From assembly GCA_026129305.1 (NCBI GenBank), contig JAHCII010000008.1, positions 1 through 64,000 on the forward strand: a stretch of DNA of 64,000 nucleotides. Reading direction: 5' to 3'. Source of the DNA: Anaerolineales bacterium. GTDB lineage: Bacteria > Chloroflexota > Anaerolineae > Anaerolineales > UBA11579. Position 1 is the stretch's first letter, and each line of letters starts with the position of its first letter. The notes under the pieces are model-generated. The model saw only the letters and a list, made by a program, of their open reading frames with translations, ran no database searches and was not told the origin of the DNA. Positions 38,042-46,806 of the stretch are shown here, piece by piece. The position numbers were made by a program, and so were the translations under genes.

Positions 38042-38057
38042 CGGGGCTTTTCTTTTT
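38024..38057. terminator. Bidirectional terminator between convergent operons
   Basis: AAAAAGAAAAGCCCC pairs with GGGGCTTTTCTTTTT around a TGAC loop. It contains the stop codon region of the membrane operon (+) and abuts the stop of the VWA gene (-), so it ends both. Confidence 0.9.
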
Positions 38058-39177
38058 ATTTGAACTTGATGCGCACGTTGGCCGGCTTTTTCAAGCGGAC
38101 TTTGCCGCCGCCCCGACCAGAAGCGGGGGCCAGATTGCTGCGCAGGCTGCCCCACAGCATGGGCACAGCCACCAGTGCAACCAGGATGAGGATCACGGTG
38201 GCAAACTGCGCCCAGGAGGCAGGCTGGGCCACCTCTGGCACCAGGCCGCCGGGGTTGTATTGGGTGGCCGTGTCGCTGCCCGCCGCACTGGTCGAGGACG
38301 CCAGCGAAACGCTCAGGGCGCGGTTAACCCCGTCACGCAGAGTGGCCGGCGAAGTGTAGGTGATGGCGTATTCGCTCTGCAGCGCGGTGGCGTAGCTGCT
38401 GTATAGAGTGGTCAGGCTGTCTTCATCTTCGGCGTAGCCATACAGTCCGCCGGCCCTATTGGCCAGGTCCTGCAAGCGCGGCTGATTAATACCAGCCATG
38501 GCGCCGCTCTGTCCCGGTAGGCCGAGGCCGACTGCCGAGATGGAGAGCCCCATGGGACCAATGCGATTGACGACCGTGTCGGTATTGGCCGAGCTGGAGT
38601 TGTCCATGCCATCAGTCAGCACAATGATCGCTTTGCGGCCGCTCTCGGCTTCCAACTGCTCCACGGCTGCCATGAGCGCGTCATACATGGCGGTGTCATC
38701 GCCGGCAGTCAGGCTGTCAACCGCGGCGCGCAGGGCGTCCTGGTCGCTGGTGATCGGCTGCACGGTTTCGATCTGCGTGTTGAAGGCGATCAGGCCCACC
38801 TGGTCACCGGGGCGCATGCGGTCAATGAACTGGTGGGCGGCTGCCTTGGCGGCGTCCAGCTTGCCGGCCGTGTCCATGCTGCCGGAGACGTCCATGACCA
38901 GCATGGTGGTCAGTGCGCCCACATCACCTATGCCTTCAATACGGTCCAGCGGAATGGGTTGGCCATTTTCGGCAAGCTGGATGCGGTTAGGGTCCACTGG
39001 CAGCGGATTGCCGGCCGCGTCCGTGGCGGAGACGTAGACGGTGACGCGCGGGAACTGGCTGGTATCCACCTGGGTGACGCGGATGTTCTCCTCAGCCTGA
39101 GCCAGGGGCGTGAAGGCCGCAGTCCCGAAGAGGGCCAAGACAGCCAAAAGCGTGATGGAGAGGCGTAGTGTCTTCAT
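38056..39177 (-). CDS. Membrane-anchored von Willebrand factor A domain protein
   Basis: The 373-residue protein has a signal peptide (about residues 1-28), a beta-rich section to residue 85, a VWA domain with a complete MIDAS start Asp96-x-Ser98-x-Ser100 (MDVSGSMD), TAGDDTAMYDA and VLTDGMDNS, and a C-terminal membrane helix near residues 330-352 with a basic tail. VWA domains bind partners through a metal ion; here the domain would face outside. It is the last gene of the UBL operon, 3 nt after the FHA gene. Its role in a UBL pathway is unknown, and it could act in envelope assembly. Confidence 0.88.
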   Translation of the reverse strand: MKTLRLSITLLAVLALFGTAAFTPLAQAEENIRVTQVDTSQFPRVTVYVSATDAAGNPLPVDPNRIQLAENGQPIPLDRIEGIGDVGALTTMLVMDVSGSMDTAGKLDAAKAAAHQFIDRMRPGDQVGLIAFNTQIETVQPITSDQDALRAAVDSLTAGDDTAMYDALMAAVEQLEAESGRKAIIVLTDGMDNSSSANTDTVVNRIGPMGLSISAVGLGLPGQSGAMAGINQPRLQDLANRAGGLYGYAEDEDSLTTLYSSYATALQSEYAITYTSPATLRDGVNRALSVSLASSTSAAGSDTATQYNPGGLVPEVAQPASWAQFATVILILVALVAVPMLWGSLRSNLAPASGRGGGKVRLKKPANVRIKFK

Positions 39178-39180
39178 GGG

Positions 39181-40038
39181 TTACCTCTTTTCGTGATAGA
39201 CCATTTGGGTATTGCCAATCCGAATGGCCTGTTCGTCTTTTAGATTGGCAACTTCGATCCGGCGGTTGTTGATAAAAGTGCCCTGACTGCTCATATCCTT
39301 GAGCGTCATGTGTGTGTCTGCCCCTTTGAGCAGAGCATGTTGCGGGGCAATATCTGGATCAGGCAGGACGATGTCTGCCTTGAGCGCATCTGAGCCGATA
39401 TAGGCCGAAGGCCCATTGGCGTGGATGAACTTGTCCAGCACGAATTCCGTGCCCTTCATCTTGCCCGTGACCACTTCCAGCCAGGCTTTGGAGAGCAGCA
39501 GCACGATCAGGGCAATGAAGGCGCCCACTGCCGCGCCGAGCAGGCCCAAGCCAGCGGCCTTGCCCATCAACGGATCGGCAAAGCGCTGGCGGGCGAACTC
39601 CAGCAAAAAGCCGCCGACCGCTCCGCCCAGCAGGCCGCCCAGGACCGGCTTCCACAGCTGGGAACCGCTGCTGAAGCCCAAGCCGGCGCCGATGAAGGCG
39701 CCGAAGATGGCCCAACCCAGCGCACGGGTCCAGGCTTCGCCGCCCAGGCTTTGGAAGGCATATTCGGCCAGCGGCAGCCCGACGGCGCCGCCCAACGCGC
39801 CAAGCAGCCCGCTGATCAGGCCGGCTCGCAGGCCGTAGAGCGGGCTGCGGGCGGCCAGGCCCTCACTGAGGCCGATCAGGGCGCCGATGCACAGGCCAAT
39901 CAGCGCCCCAACGATCACTTCGCTGAGATACAGGTTCTGCACGAACGAGAGTCCGAGCAGATTGCTGGCCTGCCAGCCGATCAGGCCGCCTATGGCGCCC
40001 AAAAGGCTGTAGTAATACAGTCGGGTGTAGCGGTTCAT
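39181..40038 (-). CDS. Membrane protein with a C-terminal FHA domain
   Basis: The 285-residue protein has a Gly/Ala-rich membrane part of about six segments (residues 8-185) and a cytoplasmic FHA domain at about 205-283 with YIGSDALKADIVLPDPDIAP, QHALLKG and DMSSQGTFINNRRI. FHA domains bind phosphothreonine; the usual Arg of the GR motif is Ser here and the SRxH motif reads APQH, so phosphopeptide binding may be altered. It overlaps the JAMM gene by 4 nt. Expected role is recruiting a phosphorylated partner to the membrane. Confidence 0.85.
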   Translation of the reverse strand: MNRYTRLYYYSLLGAIGGLIGWQASNLLGLSFVQNLYLSEVIVGALIGLCIGALIGLSEGLAARSPLYGLRAGLISGLLGALGGAVGLPLAEYAFQSLGGEAWTRALGWAIFGAFIGAGLGFSSGSQLWKPVLGGLLGGAVGGFLLEFARQRFADPLMGKAAGLGLLGAAVGAFIALIVLLLSKAWLEVVTGKMKGTEFVLDKFIHANGPSAYIGSDALKADIVLPDPDIAPQHALLKGADTHMTLKDMSSQGTFINNRRIEVANLKDEQAIRIGNTQMVYHEKR

Positions 40039-40703
40039 TCTTCTGCCTCCTGAGCGGCCTTGGTTTGGCCTGTGTCTGAAGCCGGTGGCTGGTGTAGATT
40101 CTTCCAGTCCACCACCGGGTGGGACTTGCGGTTAAAGAGCTCGTAAAAACCATAGCCTTGCTGGGCATTCAAGTTGCCCTGTTTGTCTCGAATAAAGAAG
40201 CCCGCCGTGTGGCTGTGTGGTTCGACCACCAGCGCCACCTGCCAGCCATGCGGGAAAAAGTGCCGATGCAGCCAAAGGTCGTAGCCGGAGAGGAAGACGC
40301 TCATGCGCGGATGGGTGTGGTACCAGCCCACAATATGCTTGTTAGCGTAGCGCTCCTCCAAGGCGGCCAGCATGGCCACCTGGCTGTCGTGTGTAAAAGT
40401 CAGGAAAGTGCTGCCCGAACGCACCTGCTGGGCAGGCAGAAGCGCCTCCACCACCAGGTAGAGCTGGCCTGTGTCCGGATCCTGACAGTGTCGCCCTGCC
40501 AGCCAACCGCCCACTTCGTTATCCAGGTCGGTATTGGCATGGCGGTGGATGGCCTGAAAGGCGGTTTGGGTCATGAAGACCTGAGTGTGCGGAGCAGCAT
40601 CAGGTTCACCCTCGGCCAGCCAGCGCTGAGCGCGTTCCAGCGGCAGGCGCGCCGGACGGGGCGCCTGAGCGGCTACCAGTGGGGAGATGTTGGTGTGGGT
40701 CAT
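40035..40703 (-). CDS. JAMM/MPN+ metallopeptidase, candidate deconjugating isopeptidase
   Basis: The 222-residue protein has the full JAMM zinc motif: Glu63 in DNEVGGWLAG, His129-Thr-His131-Pro in GWYHTHP, then Ser139 and Asp142 in LSGYD. JAMM enzymes (Rpn11, CSN5, bacterial JAB proteins) cleave isopeptide bonds to ubiquitin-like proteins or process their C-termini. A C-terminal tail of about 40 residues follows the domain. I chose the ATG at 40703; an upstream in-frame ATG at 40754 would place the start inside a 13-bp hairpin. Gene order directly links it to the UBL and UBL-E2 genes. Confidence 0.92.
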   Translation of the reverse strand: MTHTNISPLVAAQAPRPARLPLERAQRWLAEGEPDAAPHTQVFMTQTAFQAIHRHANTDLDNEVGGWLAGRHCQDPDTGQLYLVVEALLPAQQVRSGSTFLTFTHDSQVAMLAALEERYANKHIVGWYHTHPRMSVFLSGYDLWLHRHFFPHGWQVALVVEPHSHTAGFFIRDKQGNLNAQQGYGFYELFNRKSHPVVDWKNLHQPPASDTGQTKAAQEAEE

Positions 40704-40758: not shown

Positions 40759-41025
40759 TTACCCGGCGGTGACGTCGGCGGTCATGATCAGCCGGTCTTC
40801 GGCGGGGATGCCGGCGCCAGACAGGGTTTCCTGGTCTTTCAGCTCGCGGCCCAGGGCCTTGCTGTCCAGGCGGTAGCCCATCGGGCGGCCGTCCGGGCCG
40901 GTGGTGGGCAGTTCCAGCGAGGTGGCCAATTCCGGGATGAGGTCCTTGACCTCCACGTCATCGGGCACATCGGCGGAACGGCTGCCCCCCGAGGGCAGTA
41001 CTACGGTTACAGGGATCTCTGCCAT
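40759..41025 (-). CDS. Stand-alone ubiquitin-like protein
   Basis: The 88-residue protein reads as a beta-grasp ubiquitin-like domain of the YukD/EsaB-related type: strand PVTVVLPSGGSRSADVP, helix EVKDLIPELATSLEL, then YRLDSKALGRELKDQETLSG and AEDRLIMTADVTAG. It ends exactly at Ala87-Gly88, giving an exposed C-terminal glycine suitable for adenylation. The fused UBL of the upstream gene is nearly identical over residues 40-88, but continues past the same TAG. AAAGGAGTTAGAC precedes the ATG. It is the likely modifier of the system; the single rather than double terminal Gly is noted. Confidence 0.9.
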   Translation of the reverse strand: MAEIPVTVVLPSGGSRSADVPDDVEVKDLIPELATSLELPTTGPDGRPMGYRLDSKALGRELKDQETLSGAGIPAEDRLIMTADVTAG

Positions 41026-41082
41026 GTCTAACTCCTTTCAAGTTCTTCTTGGCAATCAACGGCAGCAAGCTGCCGGGAACCA

Positions 41083-41922
41083 CTATTTGAGGCGAATGCG
41101 CGGCTTGGTTTTGGGTTTGTCCTTGATGCGGATGCGCTCCGGGCGCAGCAACTCGCGCGCATCCACCGGGAAGGCGCGTGGGTTGCGGCGCCGGTATTCC
41201 CGGCTCCAGCGGGCGGCTTCCGGATCCCAGGGGAATGGCGGCTTGGTGGGATCGTCGTGGAAGTTCTTGTACTGCACCATCTCCCCAATCATCAGCACCA
41301 GGCGGTCCAGCGAGCGGCTGGCCGTCCACCAGGCAGCGTCCACACAGACCGTGCCGTTGAGGTGGTTAATGTTGGGATGCCAGACCGGGGTCAGCCACTT
41401 CATGCCGGGCCAACGCTGGGGGTATTGATTGTGCAGATAAATCTCCACCTGGTGGCGTTCGCCAAACTTGGGTGTTCCGGAGCGATCGACGCCCACGATG
41501 CCTTTGCAGGTGTAGGTGACGATGTACTTTTCCGGGGGCAGGCCGGGGCGCTCGGAATGCGCCTTGAAGTCGATAAAGTCGCTCTGGGCCGCCAGTTCCT
41601 GCATACGGGTGTGGTCGGCTTTCAGGCGGCGCAAGCGCGGGCTTTCGGTGCCGACCGCGCCGGCGGTGATGTCGGCGGTCAGGATCAGGCGATCGTCGGC
41701 AGGCACGCCGGCAGAAGCCAGGGTCTCGTCCTCCTTCAGTTCACGGCCCAGGGCCTTGCTGTCCAGACGGTAACCCATCGGGCGGCCGTCTGGCCCCACG
41801 GTGGGCAGCTCCAGCAGCGAAGCCAGCTCGGTGACCAGGTCACGGATGGGGATGTCGTCCGGCATTTCGGCCTTGCGTGCCCCACCACTGGGCATGATGA
41901 TCGTGATTTCGGTTTCAGCCAT
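41083..41922 (-). CDS. UBL-E2 fusion: ubiquitin-like domain joined to a UBC conjugating domain
   Basis: The 279-residue protein has a UBL at residues 1-87, a paralogue of the next gene (GPDGRPMGYRLDSKALGREL is identical), and a UBC/E2 domain at about 92-235. E2 hallmarks are YPQRWPGMKWLTPVWHPNIN, the HPN motif at 182-184, active-site Cys193 in NGTVCVDAAWW, and the following SLDRLVLMIGEMVQ helix. A basic tail rich in Arg and Lys covers 236-279. It would accept the UBL from the E1 on Cys193. The start at 41922 is preceded by TAGGAGATCTT. The fused UBL cannot be conjugated through its TAG unless cleaved there, so it may serve as a docking or regulatory domain. Confidence 0.93.
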   Translation of the reverse strand: MAETEITIIMPSGGARKAEMPDDIPIRDLVTELASLLELPTVGPDGRPMGYRLDSKALGRELKEDETLASAGVPADDRLILTADITAGAVGTESPRLRRLKADHTRMQELAAQSDFIDFKAHSERPGLPPEKYIVTYTCKGIVGVDRSGTPKFGERHQVEIYLHNQYPQRWPGMKWLTPVWHPNINHLNGTVCVDAAWWTASRSLDRLVLMIGEMVQYKNFHDDPTKPPFPWDPEAARWSREYRRRNPRAFPVDARELLRPERIRIKDKPKTKPRIRLK

Positions 41923-41935
41923 AAGATCTCCTAAA

Positions 41936-42820
41936 TTACTCTGCGTATTGATGCGGCACCTGGCAAACACCAGTGATCTCCCAGCAATCGCGGTGGTGCC
42001 AGGTTTTGCACACTTTGCAAATCTGCACGCCGCGCGGGTCTTTTTTGGTGACTTCTTCCAAACAGTACGGGCAGACATGGGTCTCCGCACTGGAGAAATG
42101 CACAGCGGTCCGGCGGCCGCGCCGGATGCGCTTAGGGGCCGCCGGGGCGGCGATGCGCTGGCGGGGTTGGCGCAAGCTGGTACCGCGGCGCACACGGCGG
42201 CCCGGCCACAGGCTGACCAAACTGGTCTTGACGCGCCCGCTCCAATTGGCGATGGAAGTGCGGATGGTGGGCCGGCGGGCTGGGCGCGCGGCGCGCACAC
42301 GCGGCCGGGGCGCAGGCGAGACACTGATGGGCGTCACCGGCGCCGCCAGCTCCAGCGAAGCCGCCGGGCGCGGCTCCACCAGGATCTCAGTGCGCCGCCG
42401 GGCAAAGGCGCCCAGCGCCAGCCAGGCCGCCAGGCTGCTGGTGAGCAGAGCCAGCCCGTTCTGCTCGAAAGTGATGTGAGCGAATTGGTGCAAGGGATCA
42501 ATGCCAATAAAGCCGCGGCTGGCCTCATTCATCAAGCCCAGCCCCAGGCAAATGGCCAGCCCAGCGGTGGAGAGGCGCAGGGCATAGCTGCGCCCCGCCA
42601 ACAGACGCCGAGCACTGAATCCCGCCACCAAGCCCACCGAGCCCAGCGCGGCATATTTCATGGCTGTCAGGGAAACCTGTAACTCCAACGAAAAGAGCAG
42701 CAGCAAAGCCAGGGCGGTGACGGTCGTGATGAGCGTTACCAGGACGACCTGTTCCAGCAGGTGACCGAAGGTGCTGGGGGAGGAATTCATGCGCGGCATT
42801 GGAATGACATTCGTGGCCAT
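41936..42820 (-). CDS. Membrane protein with a C-terminal RING-like zinc finger, candidate E3
   Basis: The 294-residue protein has membrane segments at about residues 22-48, 53-72, 82-97 and 120-140, then a long Arg/Pro-rich linker, and a C-terminal treble-clef finger: Cys250-x2-Cys253, Cys268-x2-Cys271-x4-His276-x2-Cys279, Cys286 and His290. The HHRDCW core with a following GxC resembles prokaryotic RING families described beside bacterial ubiquitin-type genes. As a membrane-anchored RING it would bring the E2 to envelope substrates. It starts one base after the E1 stop. The E3 role is inferred from fold and context; the finger could also only bind the E2 or substrate. Confidence 0.85.
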   Translation of the reverse strand: MATNVIPMPRMNSSPSTFGHLLEQVVLVTLITTVTALALLLLFSLELQVSLTAMKYAALGSVGLVAGFSARRLLAGRSYALRLSTAGLAICLGLGLMNEASRGFIGIDPLHQFAHITFEQNGLALLTSSLAAWLALGAFARRRTEILVEPRPAASLELAAPVTPISVSPAPRPRVRAARPARRPTIRTSIANWSGRVKTSLVSLWPGRRVRRGTSLRQPRQRIAAPAAPKRIRRGRRTAVHFSSAETHVCPYCLEEVTKKDPRGVQICKVCKTWHHRDCWEITGVCQVPHQYAE

Positions 42821-42821
42821 A

Positions 42822-44453
42822 TCAATCCATCAGATGGATGCGCGCCGCAGCCGTGTCCCCAGCTTCGTTGACCGGCTCGCCCAGGCGTACACGCGTTTCC
42901 GGCGAGGGTGTCGGCACCGCCTCGGCAAAATCATTGAAGTGCAGCGCCTTATGCAGGTCGCCGCTGAGTTCGTAGAAGCGAAAGTCAAGGCCGTTGGTGG
43001 CGCGCAGCACATGCAGCGGTGGGACGCCGACACTGGCCAGGCTGCGATCAAGGAAATCTTCATCACCGCGGATGGTGTGGGTCATGTTGACCTCACGCAT
43101 TTCGCCACAGGTGGGGCAATGCCCAGCCTCAAAGGACACGTCGGACATGGGCTTGAGCACTCGTTCAGAGGTATTGCAAGCCATGCAATTCAGCGAGAGC
43201 ACCAGCTCCTCATCCAACTCCAGCACAGCGTCCTGGCCCAGATCAGCAAAGACCACATCCAGCATCTCGCCCAGCGTGGTGCTCTCGGCGCGCAGCGGCG
43301 TCTCGGTGATCTCGCCGTAGATCCAATGGCTCTCGCAGTCTTCCTCGGCCAGATAGGCCGTGGTGTGCATGTGATTGGTGTAGCCGTTGAAGTGGGTGAC
43401 TTTGCCCGGCTCCACCGGCATGCTGTGGATCAGCTTGAGCGCCTCCTGCGACTGCATGGCGCCGATGATGGAAGCAATGGTGGGCGTGGTGGGCACTTTG
43501 CCCAGCAAAATGTTCTGGCGGGCCAGCAGCGGACAGGAGTAGCGCAGGGCCAGGTCGCGGCGGGCTTGCTCGGTGAGCGTGCATTCGAAGCAGGCGCCGT
43601 CGCCGGGGACAAACACGCGCACCAAGCCGAGCAATTCCTGAATGGCGCCATCCACCCAGGGCTTGTTCATCCAATAGGCAAAGCGATTGACCGCCAGGCG
43701 CGCCTCACGATTGTCAAGGCAGCCGATGATGACGTCCATGCGGCGGAAGACGCCCAGACCAATGTCATGCGTGATATCGCCGTGCAGGTATTGCACTTTT
43801 ACGTCGGGGTTGATCTCTTTGGCGCGGGCGGCAGCCAACTGGGCTTTCTCCCGCCCGGAATCTTTCTCGCGGAACAGGATCGAGCGGCTGAGGTTGGCCA
43901 GTTCGACATTGTCAAAATCGACCACGTAGATGTGGCCGATGCCCATCAGGGTCAGGTTCTTGATCACCTCGTTGCCCAAGGCGCCTGCCCCCACCACCAT
44001 CACCCTGGCGTCGCGCACTTTGTCGCGTTCCCACCAGGAGATGAAGTCGAAAGTTCCGAGACGGTCTTTCTTGAGGTTGGGGATGTGCAGCGGCTTCTCT
44101 TTGGCGACGGGCAGGCGCTGTGGCCCGGCCGGCGCGGCGGCAGGTTTGCGCCGCGCCGGTTTGTCCGCGGCGGGCGGCGCCAGGCGGGCGGCCAACTTGC
44201 GAGCTTTGGCCGCCTGCTGCGCGGATAAGGCGTCCACCAGCCAGCCAACCCCTTGGTGCGCTTCGATCAGCCCGGCCTCAGCCAGGATCTGCAACCCTTC
44301 GCGCAGCGAGGAGCGGCTGACGCCGAGGTCCTTGATGAGGTCACGCTCCGGCGGCAGGTAGGCGCCGGGCAGGTAGTCTTTTTCCAGCAGGGCGGCGGCC
44401 AGTTTGCCGGCCACCAGCTCGGGGATGCTGCTTCTGGGGATGGCGTTGCTCAT
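42822..44453 (-). CDS. E1-like (ThiF) activating enzyme with an N-terminal GntR/FadR DNA-binding domain
   Basis: The 543-residue protein has three parts. Residues 8-75 are a FadR-subfamily winged helix (LPPERDLIKDLGVSRSSLRE, then AHQGVGWLVD). Residues 135-365 are an E1/ThiF domain with nucleotide-binding VVGAGALG at 154-160, the acidic DFDNVELANLSRSILF with Arg190, a CxxC at Cys288/Cys291, candidate catalytic Cys307 in YSCPLLARQN, and PTTPTIASIIGAMQSQEALK at 321-340. Residues 415-455 hold a zinc ribbon (Cys423, 426, 446, 449). It should adenylate the UBL C-terminus and hand it to Cys193 of the E2. ATG 44453 has GGAGAGAG upstream. A FadR-type palindrome lies 29 nt before the ATG, suggesting autoregulation. 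Confidence 0.92.
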   Translation of the reverse strand: MSNAIPRSSIPELVAGKLAAALLEKDYLPGAYLPPERDLIKDLGVSRSSLREGLQILAEAGLIEAHQGVGWLVDALSAQQAAKARKLAARLAPPAADKPARRKPAAAPAGPQRLPVAKEKPLHIPNLKKDRLGTFDFISWWERDKVRDARVMVVGAGALGNEVIKNLTLMGIGHIYVVDFDNVELANLSRSILFREKDSGREKAQLAAARAKEINPDVKVQYLHGDITHDIGLGVFRRMDVIIGCLDNREARLAVNRFAYWMNKPWVDGAIQELLGLVRVFVPGDGACFECTLTEQARRDLALRYSCPLLARQNILLGKVPTTPTIASIIGAMQSQEALKLIHSMPVEPGKVTHFNGYTNHMHTTAYLAEEDCESHWIYGEITETPLRAESTTLGEMLDVVFADLGQDAVLELDEELVLSLNCMACNTSERVLKPMSDVSFEAGHCPTCGEMREVNMTHTIRGDEDFLDRSLASVGVPPLHVLRATNGLDFRFYELSGDLHKALHFNDFAEAVPTPSPETRVRLGEPVNEAGDTAAARIHLMD

Positions 44454-44481
44454 CAGCGGTCTCTCTCCAAAGGCAGTGGTC

Positions 44482-44749: not shown

Positions 44750-45202
44750 TTAGACGTTGGCGGGGCGGATGCCGCGGTAGACCTGACGGCCGGAGAGTGT
44801 ACGCAGGATGGTTTGCGCCGGGCGGCCCAGGTCTGCAGCCAGCTGCTCCGCAGTCAGGGGCTGGTTGCCGTTTTTGAGAAAGGAGCGGAAGATCGACTCG
44901 ATCAGCGAGGAACCGCCCTGCTCATCGTTGGCGCCGTAGTGGGAGCTGAGCAGGTATTGCAGCGCGTCGATCTGGGTAACCTGGGCCGTTTGCGGGTCCA
45001 CCCGGTCAATCGTGTCGTCCAGGTTGATCCGGCCCACACTGGCCTGCTGCTCTTCACTGAGCAGGCCGTACAGAAAAACCTGCCACTCCTGGTCGTTCTG
45101 CCGCCACCAGGAGAAGTCGATATGAAAGGGCGTGTCCAGCGTAGGGCGAATAAGGCTGGAACGCAGGATTTCGTTCTCTTGAGGTTCGGAGTTCTCGCTC
45201 AT
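44750..45202 (-). CDS. Hypothetical protein, 150 aa, with a helix-turn-helix-like C-terminus
   Basis: I do not recognise this 150-residue acidic protein. The N-terminal half has FHIDFSWWRQNDQEWQVFLYG, and the C-terminus QPLTAEQLAADLGRPAQTIL reads like a small winged-helix segment ending in RGIRPANV. It overlaps the larger upstream gene by 4 nt, so the two form a unit. It points toward the UBL operon but is separated from it by a terminator and the tRNA, so joint transcription is unlikely. Confidence 0.7.
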   Translation of the reverse strand: MSENSEPQENEILRSSLIRPTLDTPFHIDFSWWRQNDQEWQVFLYGLLSEEQQASVGRINLDDTIDRVDPQTAQVTQIDALQYLLSSHYGANDEQGGSSLIESIFRSFLKNGNQPLTAEQLAADLGRPAQTILRTLSGRQVYRGIRPANV

Positions 45203-46806
45203 GCGTCTGCGATCTGCTCGGCCAGGCGGAAGTGTAAATGGCCGACGTGTTCAAATTGAGGGCGAGTGGCCAGCAGGGCCAGCAGTGGGGCCGGCGGGCA
45301 GCGCAAGACCAGGTTGAGGGCCGAATAAAGCTCCTCGGCATGCACATGGTTCTGTGGATTGAGCTTGGCCAGTTCCCGCAGGGTCGTACCCACGATCTGG
45401 GTGAAGTTGCCGACCGGCTTGCCAATGCGGCGTTCCCAGACCGCATCCAGCGGGCTGAGATCAGCCGGCAGGTGCATCATCATACGCTCATTAAAGGATG
45501 CAGCCACGGTCTGCTTTAGCATGGCATACACCACGCCGCCATCGGCGCCTACCAAAGCCGTGCGCACCCACTCTTTGCTGGAACGGTGGGCATCCACGGA
45601 GATAAGCACTTCACCCGGCTGCTGGCTGTGGCTGAGCTGCACGAAGGCGCCGGGCATCAGGCCGCGGTCCAAGTACCACTGGCGCAACCCAACGATGTAC
45701 CCGTGCTCGCGGTCCACCCAACCTTCGAAACGCGCCTCGCTGGAAGGGTCAACAAAGTCGAAGCGTACGCGGGGAGATTCGTAAGCGCTGGGGAAGAAGG
45801 CCGCCAGGCGCCGGGTCAGCGGCAGGCTGCCCACCCGCCAGTGCGGGTAGAGCAGGGCCACCTGGATGTGATCACCCTCCGCTTGGGGTTGAAATTCGGC
45901 GGGGGTCAGCTCATCATCAAACTGGGTTTCGAAGGCCAGCATATCTTCAGTCAATGCGGCGCGGTCGTGCTCCAGGGTTTCATAGCTGAGGTGGAGAGGA
46001 GTACGCTGCAGCGGCTCCGGCTCCAAACGTCGCAGGAACCAGGCGACCTCGCCCGAAGGTCCGACTTCGTCGAAGCGCGGGTCTTCTTGCAGAGCAAGGT
46101 CAAGAGAGAATTCGGCCAGCCGCGGATTGACACCGCTGGGCAGTTCGACCTCACCCAACAGCTGGGCGGTGAGCAGCGGACCGCCGGAAGCCATGTCCAT
46201 CAGCGCTTCGGCAACGTTAAGCTGGCCGGAATCGACATCCAGGATCAGGGCTTTGGGGAACCAGCGGCCGGCGATATAAACGAAGTCCGGGCTCAGGCGC
46301 AGCGCCTCTACCAATTGGGGCGCGATGCGGGCGGCATGATCACTGACCGCCGCGGCCAGCACATCTTCGGGGGTTTCTTCCACTTCAGGCGGATGGTTGA
46401 GGACGTGCTCCTCCAGCCCGGCGGCGTACTCGCGGCTGGCCCCATCGGCAAACTCCACCGTGATGACATCAAAGACGGCTTCGCCCAAGGTCCTGGCCGG
46501 GCGCACGGCGCTGACGCGGCCCGCCTGCCAGCCCAGGGCGGAGAAGCTGAGCTGGTCACCGACCTGATAACGCTGCTTGGGCAGGTAGGGCTTGGCCGCG
46601 GCCTGTTGGGCGGCCACATGCTCCTGCTGCTGTTGCATGCGATGGCGAATGAGTTGGGCGGCCAGCGCTTCTGGGCCGAGGGGGGTCTCTTCTTCCAGCA
46701 GGTATGCGGAGAGAAATTCGAGATCGGCTGACCGAATGCTGAATTGCTCCCAATCCATCTCAAGGGCGGGCTGCTGGGCAGACAAAGTAGAAGACTGGCT
46801 GCTCAT
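45199..46806 (-). CDS. Hypothetical protein, 535 aa
   Basis: The 535-residue protein is acidic and soluble, with no signal peptide. The N-terminus has a helical part (DLEFLSAYLLEEETPLGPEA), then a Tudor/KOW-like small barrel at about residues 75-140 (YLPKQRYQVGDQLSFSALGW; DVITVEFADGASREYAAGLE). The middle and C-terminus show no motif I know. Similar layouts may occur in other Chloroflexota, but I cannot check. It is followed by the 150-residue protein with a 4-nt overlap. Its proximity to the UBL operon makes it a possible partner or target. Confidence 0.7.
   Translation of the reverse strand: MSSQSSTLSAQQPALEMDWEQFSIRSADLEFLSAYLLEEETPLGPEALAAQLIRHRMQQQQEHVAAQQAAAKPYLPKQRYQVGDQLSFSALGWQAGRVSAVRPARTLGEAVFDVITVEFADGASREYAAGLEEHVLNHPPEVEETPEDVLAAAVSDHAARIAPQLVEALRLSPDFVYIAGRWFPKALILDVDSGQLNVAEALMDMASGGPLLTAQLLGEVELPSGVNPRLAEFSLDLALQEDPRFDEVGPSGEVAWFLRRLEPEPLQRTPLHLSYETLEHDRAALTEDMLAFETQFDDELTPAEFQPQAEGDHIQVALLYPHWRVGSLPLTRRLAAFFPSAYESPRVRFDFVDPSSEARFEGWVDREHGYIVGLRQWYLDRGLMPGAFVQLSHSQQPGEVLISVDAHRSSKEWVRTALVGADGGVVYAMLKQTVAASFNERMMMHLPADLSPLDAVWERRIGKPVGNFTQIVGTTLRELAKLNPQNHVHAEELYSALNLVLRCPPAPLLALLATRPQFEHVGHLHFRLAEQIADA

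Follow-up and report, generated by a model that had tools for sequence, protein, structure and literature searches.

The window, a stretch of 64,000 nucleotides from an Anaerolineales bacterium with a genome assembly of 2.1 Mb, carries an operon of seven genes that all lie in one orientation on the minus strand. The E1 gene (42822..44456; the first Met codon of the reading frame ends at 44453) encodes a GntR winged helix (residues 15-74), a ThiF adenylation domain, a zinc ribbon and a disordered tail. It is followed by genes for a membrane protein with a C-terminal Prok-RING_1-like zinc finger, which is an E3 candidate (41936..42820), a fusion of a ubiquitin-like domain (UBL) to an E2 (41083..41922), a free UBL (40759..41025), a JAMM/Prok-JAB protease (40035..40703), a membrane protein with a cytosolic-type FHA domain (39181..40038) and a membrane vWA protein with a signal-like N-terminus and one C-terminal transmembrane segment (38056..39177). 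This gene order is repeated in relatives within the order, and the named Anaerolineales that carry the operon include the cultured Pelolinea submarina and Leptolinea tardivitalis. About a fifth of the genomes of the order (90 of 400) gave a match, nearly all of them with both UBLs, and the sole match in the NCBI plasmids that were searched was one distant E2. Two genes upstream of the E1 (44750-46806), which have no Pfam match above the cut-off, adjoin the operon in the same genus (loci L058, L059, L062 and L063) and not in other families.

Both UBL genes lie on the minus strand, at the positions given for them in an earlier note on this DNA. The long shared blocks that it described are borne out by BLASTP, which aligns the free and fused UBLs without gaps (E 2e-45), with 61 of 88 residues identical and 79 of 88 similar; the longest identical stretch is 21 residues (GPDGRPMGYRLDSKALGRELK). 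Both match Pfam YukD above the cut-off of 27 bits (40.5 bits free, 39.3 bits fused), and the structure model shows a β-grasp whose fold matches CsUb. The free protein is 88 residues long and, as had been noted, terminates ...DRLIMTADVTAG-stop, directly after TADVTAG. The fusion protein, delimited by Pfam matches and a structure model, has 279 residues. Its UBL domain (residues 1-88, 41659..41922, from the model and BLASTP) ends ...DRLILTADITAG and is followed by AVGTE-SPRLRR and the E2, which confirms the junction TADITAG-AVG. The TAG of residues 86-88 (41659..41667), at the end of which a cut after Gly88 is proposed below, gives way to the linker AVGTE (residues 89-93, 41644..41658), which starts with a small residue and in the alignment varies in sequence and length. 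The E2 (UBC) domain (residues 94-279, 41086..41643), assigned from Pfam, alignment and structure, carries an HPN motif and a catalytic-type Cys193 and ends in a tail motif, RIRLK (41086..41100).

The differences between the two UBLs are not scattered evenly. Ten of the 13 sites that discriminate fused from free copies fall in residues 10-42, the β2 and α1 elements of the model (Fisher p 0.0035), and the segment common to both comprises residues 43-62 (β3-β4) and the tail. The enzymes that act on SUMO bind its β3-β4/tail side, and SIM peptides bind its β2-α1 side (PMC12687455). The pattern in the UBLs fits an arrangement in which both would share one E1, E2 and JAMM and would contact different non-covalent partners through β2-α1. 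The earlier note had attributed the similarity to selection on one E1/E2-binding face or to gene conversion. The first of these is supported, in that residues 43-62 and the tail are kept alike and the differences lie mainly in β2-α1; gene conversion fares badly in the comparison across genera described below.

The remaining proteins have the features of a conjugation pathway. The E2 matches UQ_con with 42.6 bits (cut-off 27, E 5.9e-11), and H182, P183, N184 and C193 are invariant in 53 sequences. The E1 has a ThiF match with E 2.9e-55, and its fold aligns with MoeB (Z 27.3) and UBA3 (Z 26.7). Its Cys308, invariant in 20 sequences, is a candidate active cysteine; on a reading of the motif, it sits where ThiF and MoeB have a conserved Cys. 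The JAMM-site residues, Glu, the two His of an HxH, Ser and Asp, are invariant at positions 55, 121, 123, 131 and 134 (n=20) when numbered from the Leu at 40679, to which a start at the ATG at 40703 adds 8, and among PDB entries the JAMM profile matches CsRpn11 of Caldiarchaeum best (E 5.8e-17). The RING candidate scores 26.7 bits against Prok-RING_1, just below the cut-off of 29.1, and its Cys/His zinc ligands are invariant in 18 sequences. Because the active-site and zinc-ligand residues are invariant, all of the operon enzymes look competent. The N-terminal GntR winged helix of the E1 (PF00392, E 5.6e-15) is found in all relatives of the GntR clade and is absent in families f20 and f135; an E1 with this domain might be a DNA-binding protein that controls the operon in which it is encoded.

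Outside the order the arrangement is different. In sister lineages the E2 is a separate protein, and its gene is directly preceded by a single UBL gene; the operon of family f20 (same class) contains an E1 without GntR, a UBL, a stand-alone E2 and two JAMM genes. The earlier note had named E2s that lack a fused UBL, and free UBLs that run past TAG, as findings that would speak against it. Both occur outside the order, the second in a few free UBLs with 2-5 further residues; they show that the fusion is derived and leave TAG as an end point standing. In families f129, f133 and f144 the GntR-E1, the UBL-E2 and the free UBL are all present. In one further genome, G1005, the only UBL found (locus L277, 8066-8925) ends TADITAG-RQL, and its stop codon and the start codon of the E2 gene share bases as ATGA; the codons of the RQL extension contain GGAGA, which can serve as a ribosome-binding site for the E2. 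The RING and the membrane protein are also encoded as separate genes at this locus. The L277 arrangement could represent either a pre-fusion or a re-split form. On the simplest reading of gene order, the fused UBL would derive from the ancestral upstream gene, extended into the E2, and the downstream UBL would be an extra copy. For the class as a whole, one common fusion event is neither rejected (p-AU 0.18) nor proven. The free UBL of genome G070 groups within the fused lineage (the fused UBL of that genome is out of frame), and the lone UBL of G1005 groups weakly there. Separate genes, an overlapping pair and a fusion would together form a series that displays a stepwise origin of the fused E2.

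The earlier note had also regarded the two UBLs as recent duplicates. In a set of 77 fused and 80 free UBLs at the order level, drawn from 61, 400 and 400 genomes, the fused copies form one old lineage (100/88) that includes one free copy, from a distant and possibly contaminated assembly. Moreover, the mean identity between a genome's own fused and free UBLs (0.715) is lower than that of fused with fused (0.741) or free with free (0.784) across families. The synonymous difference of the own pair is 0.64, and saturated in 17 of 73. These values contradict a recent duplication. A comparison of dN/dS, which the note had proposed, gave 0.108 for the fused and 0.050 for the free UBL, and judged by these ratios both copies are under purifying selection. 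As far as sequence comparison goes, the two UBLs separated long ago and each has stayed under constraint.

What had pointed to gene conversion was the sharing of synonymous codons. In the window this amounts to 0.68 in the core and 0.67 in the C-terminal block against about 0.39 expected, under a null built from all long open frames, many of them spurious; in 24 genomes the core block gave 0.68 against 0.43 expected. If the pair were recent duplicates kept alike by conversion, conservation of the fused tail would be a by-product only. However, a cross-genus comparison matched for GC3 reduces the excess of the own pair to 0.04-0.06 in each block. Of the 31 genera compared, none has a core block that lies nearer to its own paralogue than to the best orthologue from a different genus. 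The grouping of the order's fused UBLs as one lineage and the paralogue-specific residues, which are fixed in both the fused and the free UBLs, also speak against it. By these measures the recent-duplicate and conversion reading is largely refuted, and we consider it very improbable.

The most constant feature of both paralogues is the tail. Exact termination at TAG was observed in 79 of 80 free copies in the order set and in 15 of 18 at the class level (94 of 98 in total), and the four exceptional free UBLs extend by only 2-5 residues (GR, RQL, RS or QGRRA). All 85 intact fused UBLs (77 at the order level and 8 at the class level) retain TAG, and T, A and G are each encoded by their full set of four synonymous codons. 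These counts are of related sequences and not of independent events. The alignment set was drawn using a TAG pattern, but a pattern-free search run alongside found no intact UBL of the family without TAG. Three cases were set aside: the free UBL of G483, which a deletion (either real or an assembly effect) has joined to the JAMM gene, a copy masked by N in G568 and a copy with a frame break in G738. The invariance of TAG in free and fused copies, together with the stop at that point in the free ones, upholds the proposal that Gly88 is the functional C-terminus. The residue at P1' of the fused UBLs is A in 50, G in 19, S in 14 and K in two (A/G/S in 83 of 85), and at P2'-P6' the frequency of A/G/S drops to 28-44%, with an entropy of 2.8-3.1 bits; the length of the linker after TAG also varies, at about 5-10 residues. 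No fold explains the conservation of the tail, because the pLDDT of the UBL-E2 model is below 50 at residues 87-90.

The best explanation is that the operon serves ubiquitin-like conjugation in a bacterium and encodes two modifiers that are old paralogues. Because the exact tail is kept in all of the intact fused copies, the sequences suggest that the fused copy is a second, releasable tag and not a dead duplicate. The fusion would then be a precursor that is cut after Gly88 by the JAMM or another protease, which would yield the E2 and a second conjugatable UBL in a 1:1 ratio; the same E1 would activate both UBLs, and their differing β2-α1 faces would give them different partners. The cutter is probably the operon's own JAMM, in a role like that of Rpn11 in Caldiarchaeum, which matures the ubiquitin of that organism. 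CsRpn11 cleaves linear ubiquitin fusions behind the Gly and depends on a small residue at P1'; Ala at P1 is tolerated, Ala at P2 slows the reaction, Gly at P1' speeds it and Glu at P1' blocks it (PMC6043591). An AG-(A/G/S) junction fits an enzyme of this type. The whole explanation, with cleavage after Gly88 and two modifiers, is given slightly better than an even chance, and a cleavable precursor is favoured over the permanent docking domain that the earlier note had offered as the other possibility. It draws on the invariant TAG beside a variable linker with a small P1', on the natural split of UBL and E2 after TAG-RQL in L277, on the purifying selection on both UBLs, on the loss of TAG in the E1-fused UBL described below and on the position of the UBL upstream of the E2 in the sister lineages. 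Certain observations do not discriminate or weigh against it. TAG-stop UBLs adjoin a JAMM gene in fusion-less operons too, so the presence of the JAMM is neutral, and since invariant columns are common in the UBL, the constancy of three tail residues does not settle the matter by itself. The JAMM may act on conjugates only, Lys occupies P1' in two fused copies, and the fused UBL changes at roughly double the rate of the free one, as would also be expected of a copy with a lesser role. If release does take place, the trypsin remnants of the two UBLs differ in mass (LIMTADVTAG free and LILTADITAG fused in the window; LMITADITAG free and LMITTDITAG fused in Pelolinea) and could reveal which of them is conjugated.

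A fused UBL that is never cut could hold the E2 at the E1, RING or JAMM, or recruit basic I-x-L tails, with TAG retained as a non-covalent fit in a groove of the E1 or JAMM, or as a tail needed for domain spacing. The higher dN/dS of the fused copy is in keeping with such a domain, and the face that contacts E1, E2 and protease in SUMO and ubiquitin is shared by the fused and free UBLs (surface assignment from PMC12687455); a short tail motif common to the E1, E2, vWA and part of the JAMM proteins could bind a UBL, and a UBL fused to an E1 is found in another operon. That operon, L310, also serves as a control: its UBL at the C-terminus of the E1 is 40% identical to the free UBL of the same operon and ends LYDKNFLP, with no TAG. 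The comparison, although it concerns one locus whose free UBL ends NITSAR and not in Gly, is suggestive of a fused UBL that has lost its tail where release is not needed, whereas the E2-fused UBLs have never done so (85/85). The variable linker length argues against fixed spacing, and the pTM of 0.61 gives no sign of stable packing of the UBL on the E2, which is a weak point. Permanent docking is regarded as a distinctly less probable account than the precursor. Loading or auto-modification of the E2 in cis, with the N-terminal UBL as an acceptor or donor mimic beside Cys193 and no modifier released, would be in keeping with the short flexible linker and the intact E2 active site. However, a UBL can act as donor only if its C-terminal Gly is free, which it is not in the fusion, and the UBL-E2 model, for which inter-domain contacts are not given, does not place the UBL at Cys193; this alternative appears improbable.

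The tail motifs deserve consideration of their own. In GntR-bearing operons the pattern [RKH][IVL][RKHQT][LIVF] occurs in the last 12 residues of 68% of E1, 78% of E2 and 72% of vWA proteins, compared with 4-6% of shuffled sequences and 0.9% of the remaining long frames, and in JAMM N-regions it occurs in 30% against 4% in shuffles; the pattern was defined after the tails had been seen, and the rows are related. In the window the E1 tail (42831..42893) has two copies, RVRL and RIHL, and the vWA tail (38062-38103), which comes after the predicted transmembrane segment, has KVRL and RIKF. In families f129 and f133 (L278-L283) an additional JAMM protein carries the same RVRIKL-type motif at its C-terminus. 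The UBLs are acidic, with a net charge of -8 (free) and -7 (fused). The f20 UBL has a net charge of about 0 and a basic β2-α1 segment, and in that family the C-terminal tails of the E2 are acidic-flanked and of the DD(L/F)GINIL type. In L310, acidic I-x-I-T/S repeats (EIEITVL-type) stand near the ends of most proteins, with p 0.02-0.25 in single-protein shuffles. Read from sequence, the motifs and UBL grooves resemble a SIM-like contact code, in which the disordered tails of E1, E2, vWA and JAMM ([RKH][IVL]x[LIVF]) would bind the acidic β2-α1 groove. A tentative proposal, which we think unlikely to hold in full, is that SUMO-like tail-groove contacts hold the pathway together, that the E2-fused UBL is a releasable modifier and hub at once, and that motif and groove switch charge together in sister operons. 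The tail motifs would then be an early, charge-inverted counterpart of SUMO-interacting motifs.

Operons of this general kind were reportedly proposed for bacteria by Burroughs, Iyer and Aravind in 2011, with a YukD-like Ubl conjugated by means of E1, E2, Prok-RING and JAB proteins. In type VII secretion, the other setting of YukD, the partners would be a WXG100 protein, an FtsK-type ATPase or a YueB-like protein, none of which was seen among the nine operon proteins scanned. Elsewhere in the order, family f5 has a protein with a YukD-like domain (L311, 4627-5427) that is encoded close to a WXG100-like one, apparently in a type VII secretion locus of its own. The locus L310 (5649-13577; G676:C1:1478000-1494000), in a relative that is apparently Pelolinea submarina, is a different ubiquitin-like operon, with an E1 bearing a C-terminal UBL, two neighbouring E2 genes, the UBL ending NITSAR, a JAMM, a vWA protein, a PARP-like protein, two RING proteins and a CAP protein.

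The closest parallel is the Caldiarchaeum subterraneum system (PMC5654768, PMC6043591), likewise a compact operon with a ubiquitin-fold modifier, an E1, an E2 with HPN and Cys, a RING (here a candidate) and a JAMM; the JAMM profile is best matched by CsRpn11 and the UBL fold matches CsUb. Unlike that system, the modifiers here are YukD-like, end in TAG rather than GG and are two in number, one of them fused to the E2; moreover, the E1 is fused to GntR, the RING candidate is on a membrane protein, and there are membrane partners with FHA and vWA domains. Some polyUbl proteins are fused to an inactive E2-like domain (PMC1779556). As in polyUbl-E2 and Bil/Bub/CBASS-type systems, genes for E1, E2, JAB and Ubl stand together, whereas here the E2 is of the active type, the UBL is single and YukD-like, the E1 and JAMM are separate and a RING candidate is present. 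An assignment to Bil/CBASS-type Ubl defence found no PADLOC or NCBIfam match for the UBL and UBL-E2, and weak domain-level matches (ThiF, JAB) for the E1 and JAMM.

In eukaryotes, ubiquitin is released from ribosomal-protein fusions. Like these fusions (UBA52 and RPS27A), the UBL-E2 protein has a modifier placed N-terminal to a pathway or housekeeping partner, and the mature C-terminal Gly of the modifier is kept at the junction; the partner is not homologous, and the cleavage that is shown for UBA52 and RPS27A is inferred here. If the precursor explanation is true, bacteria would share the ubiquitin-fusion precursor trick of eukaryotes, with two distinct modifiers per operon.
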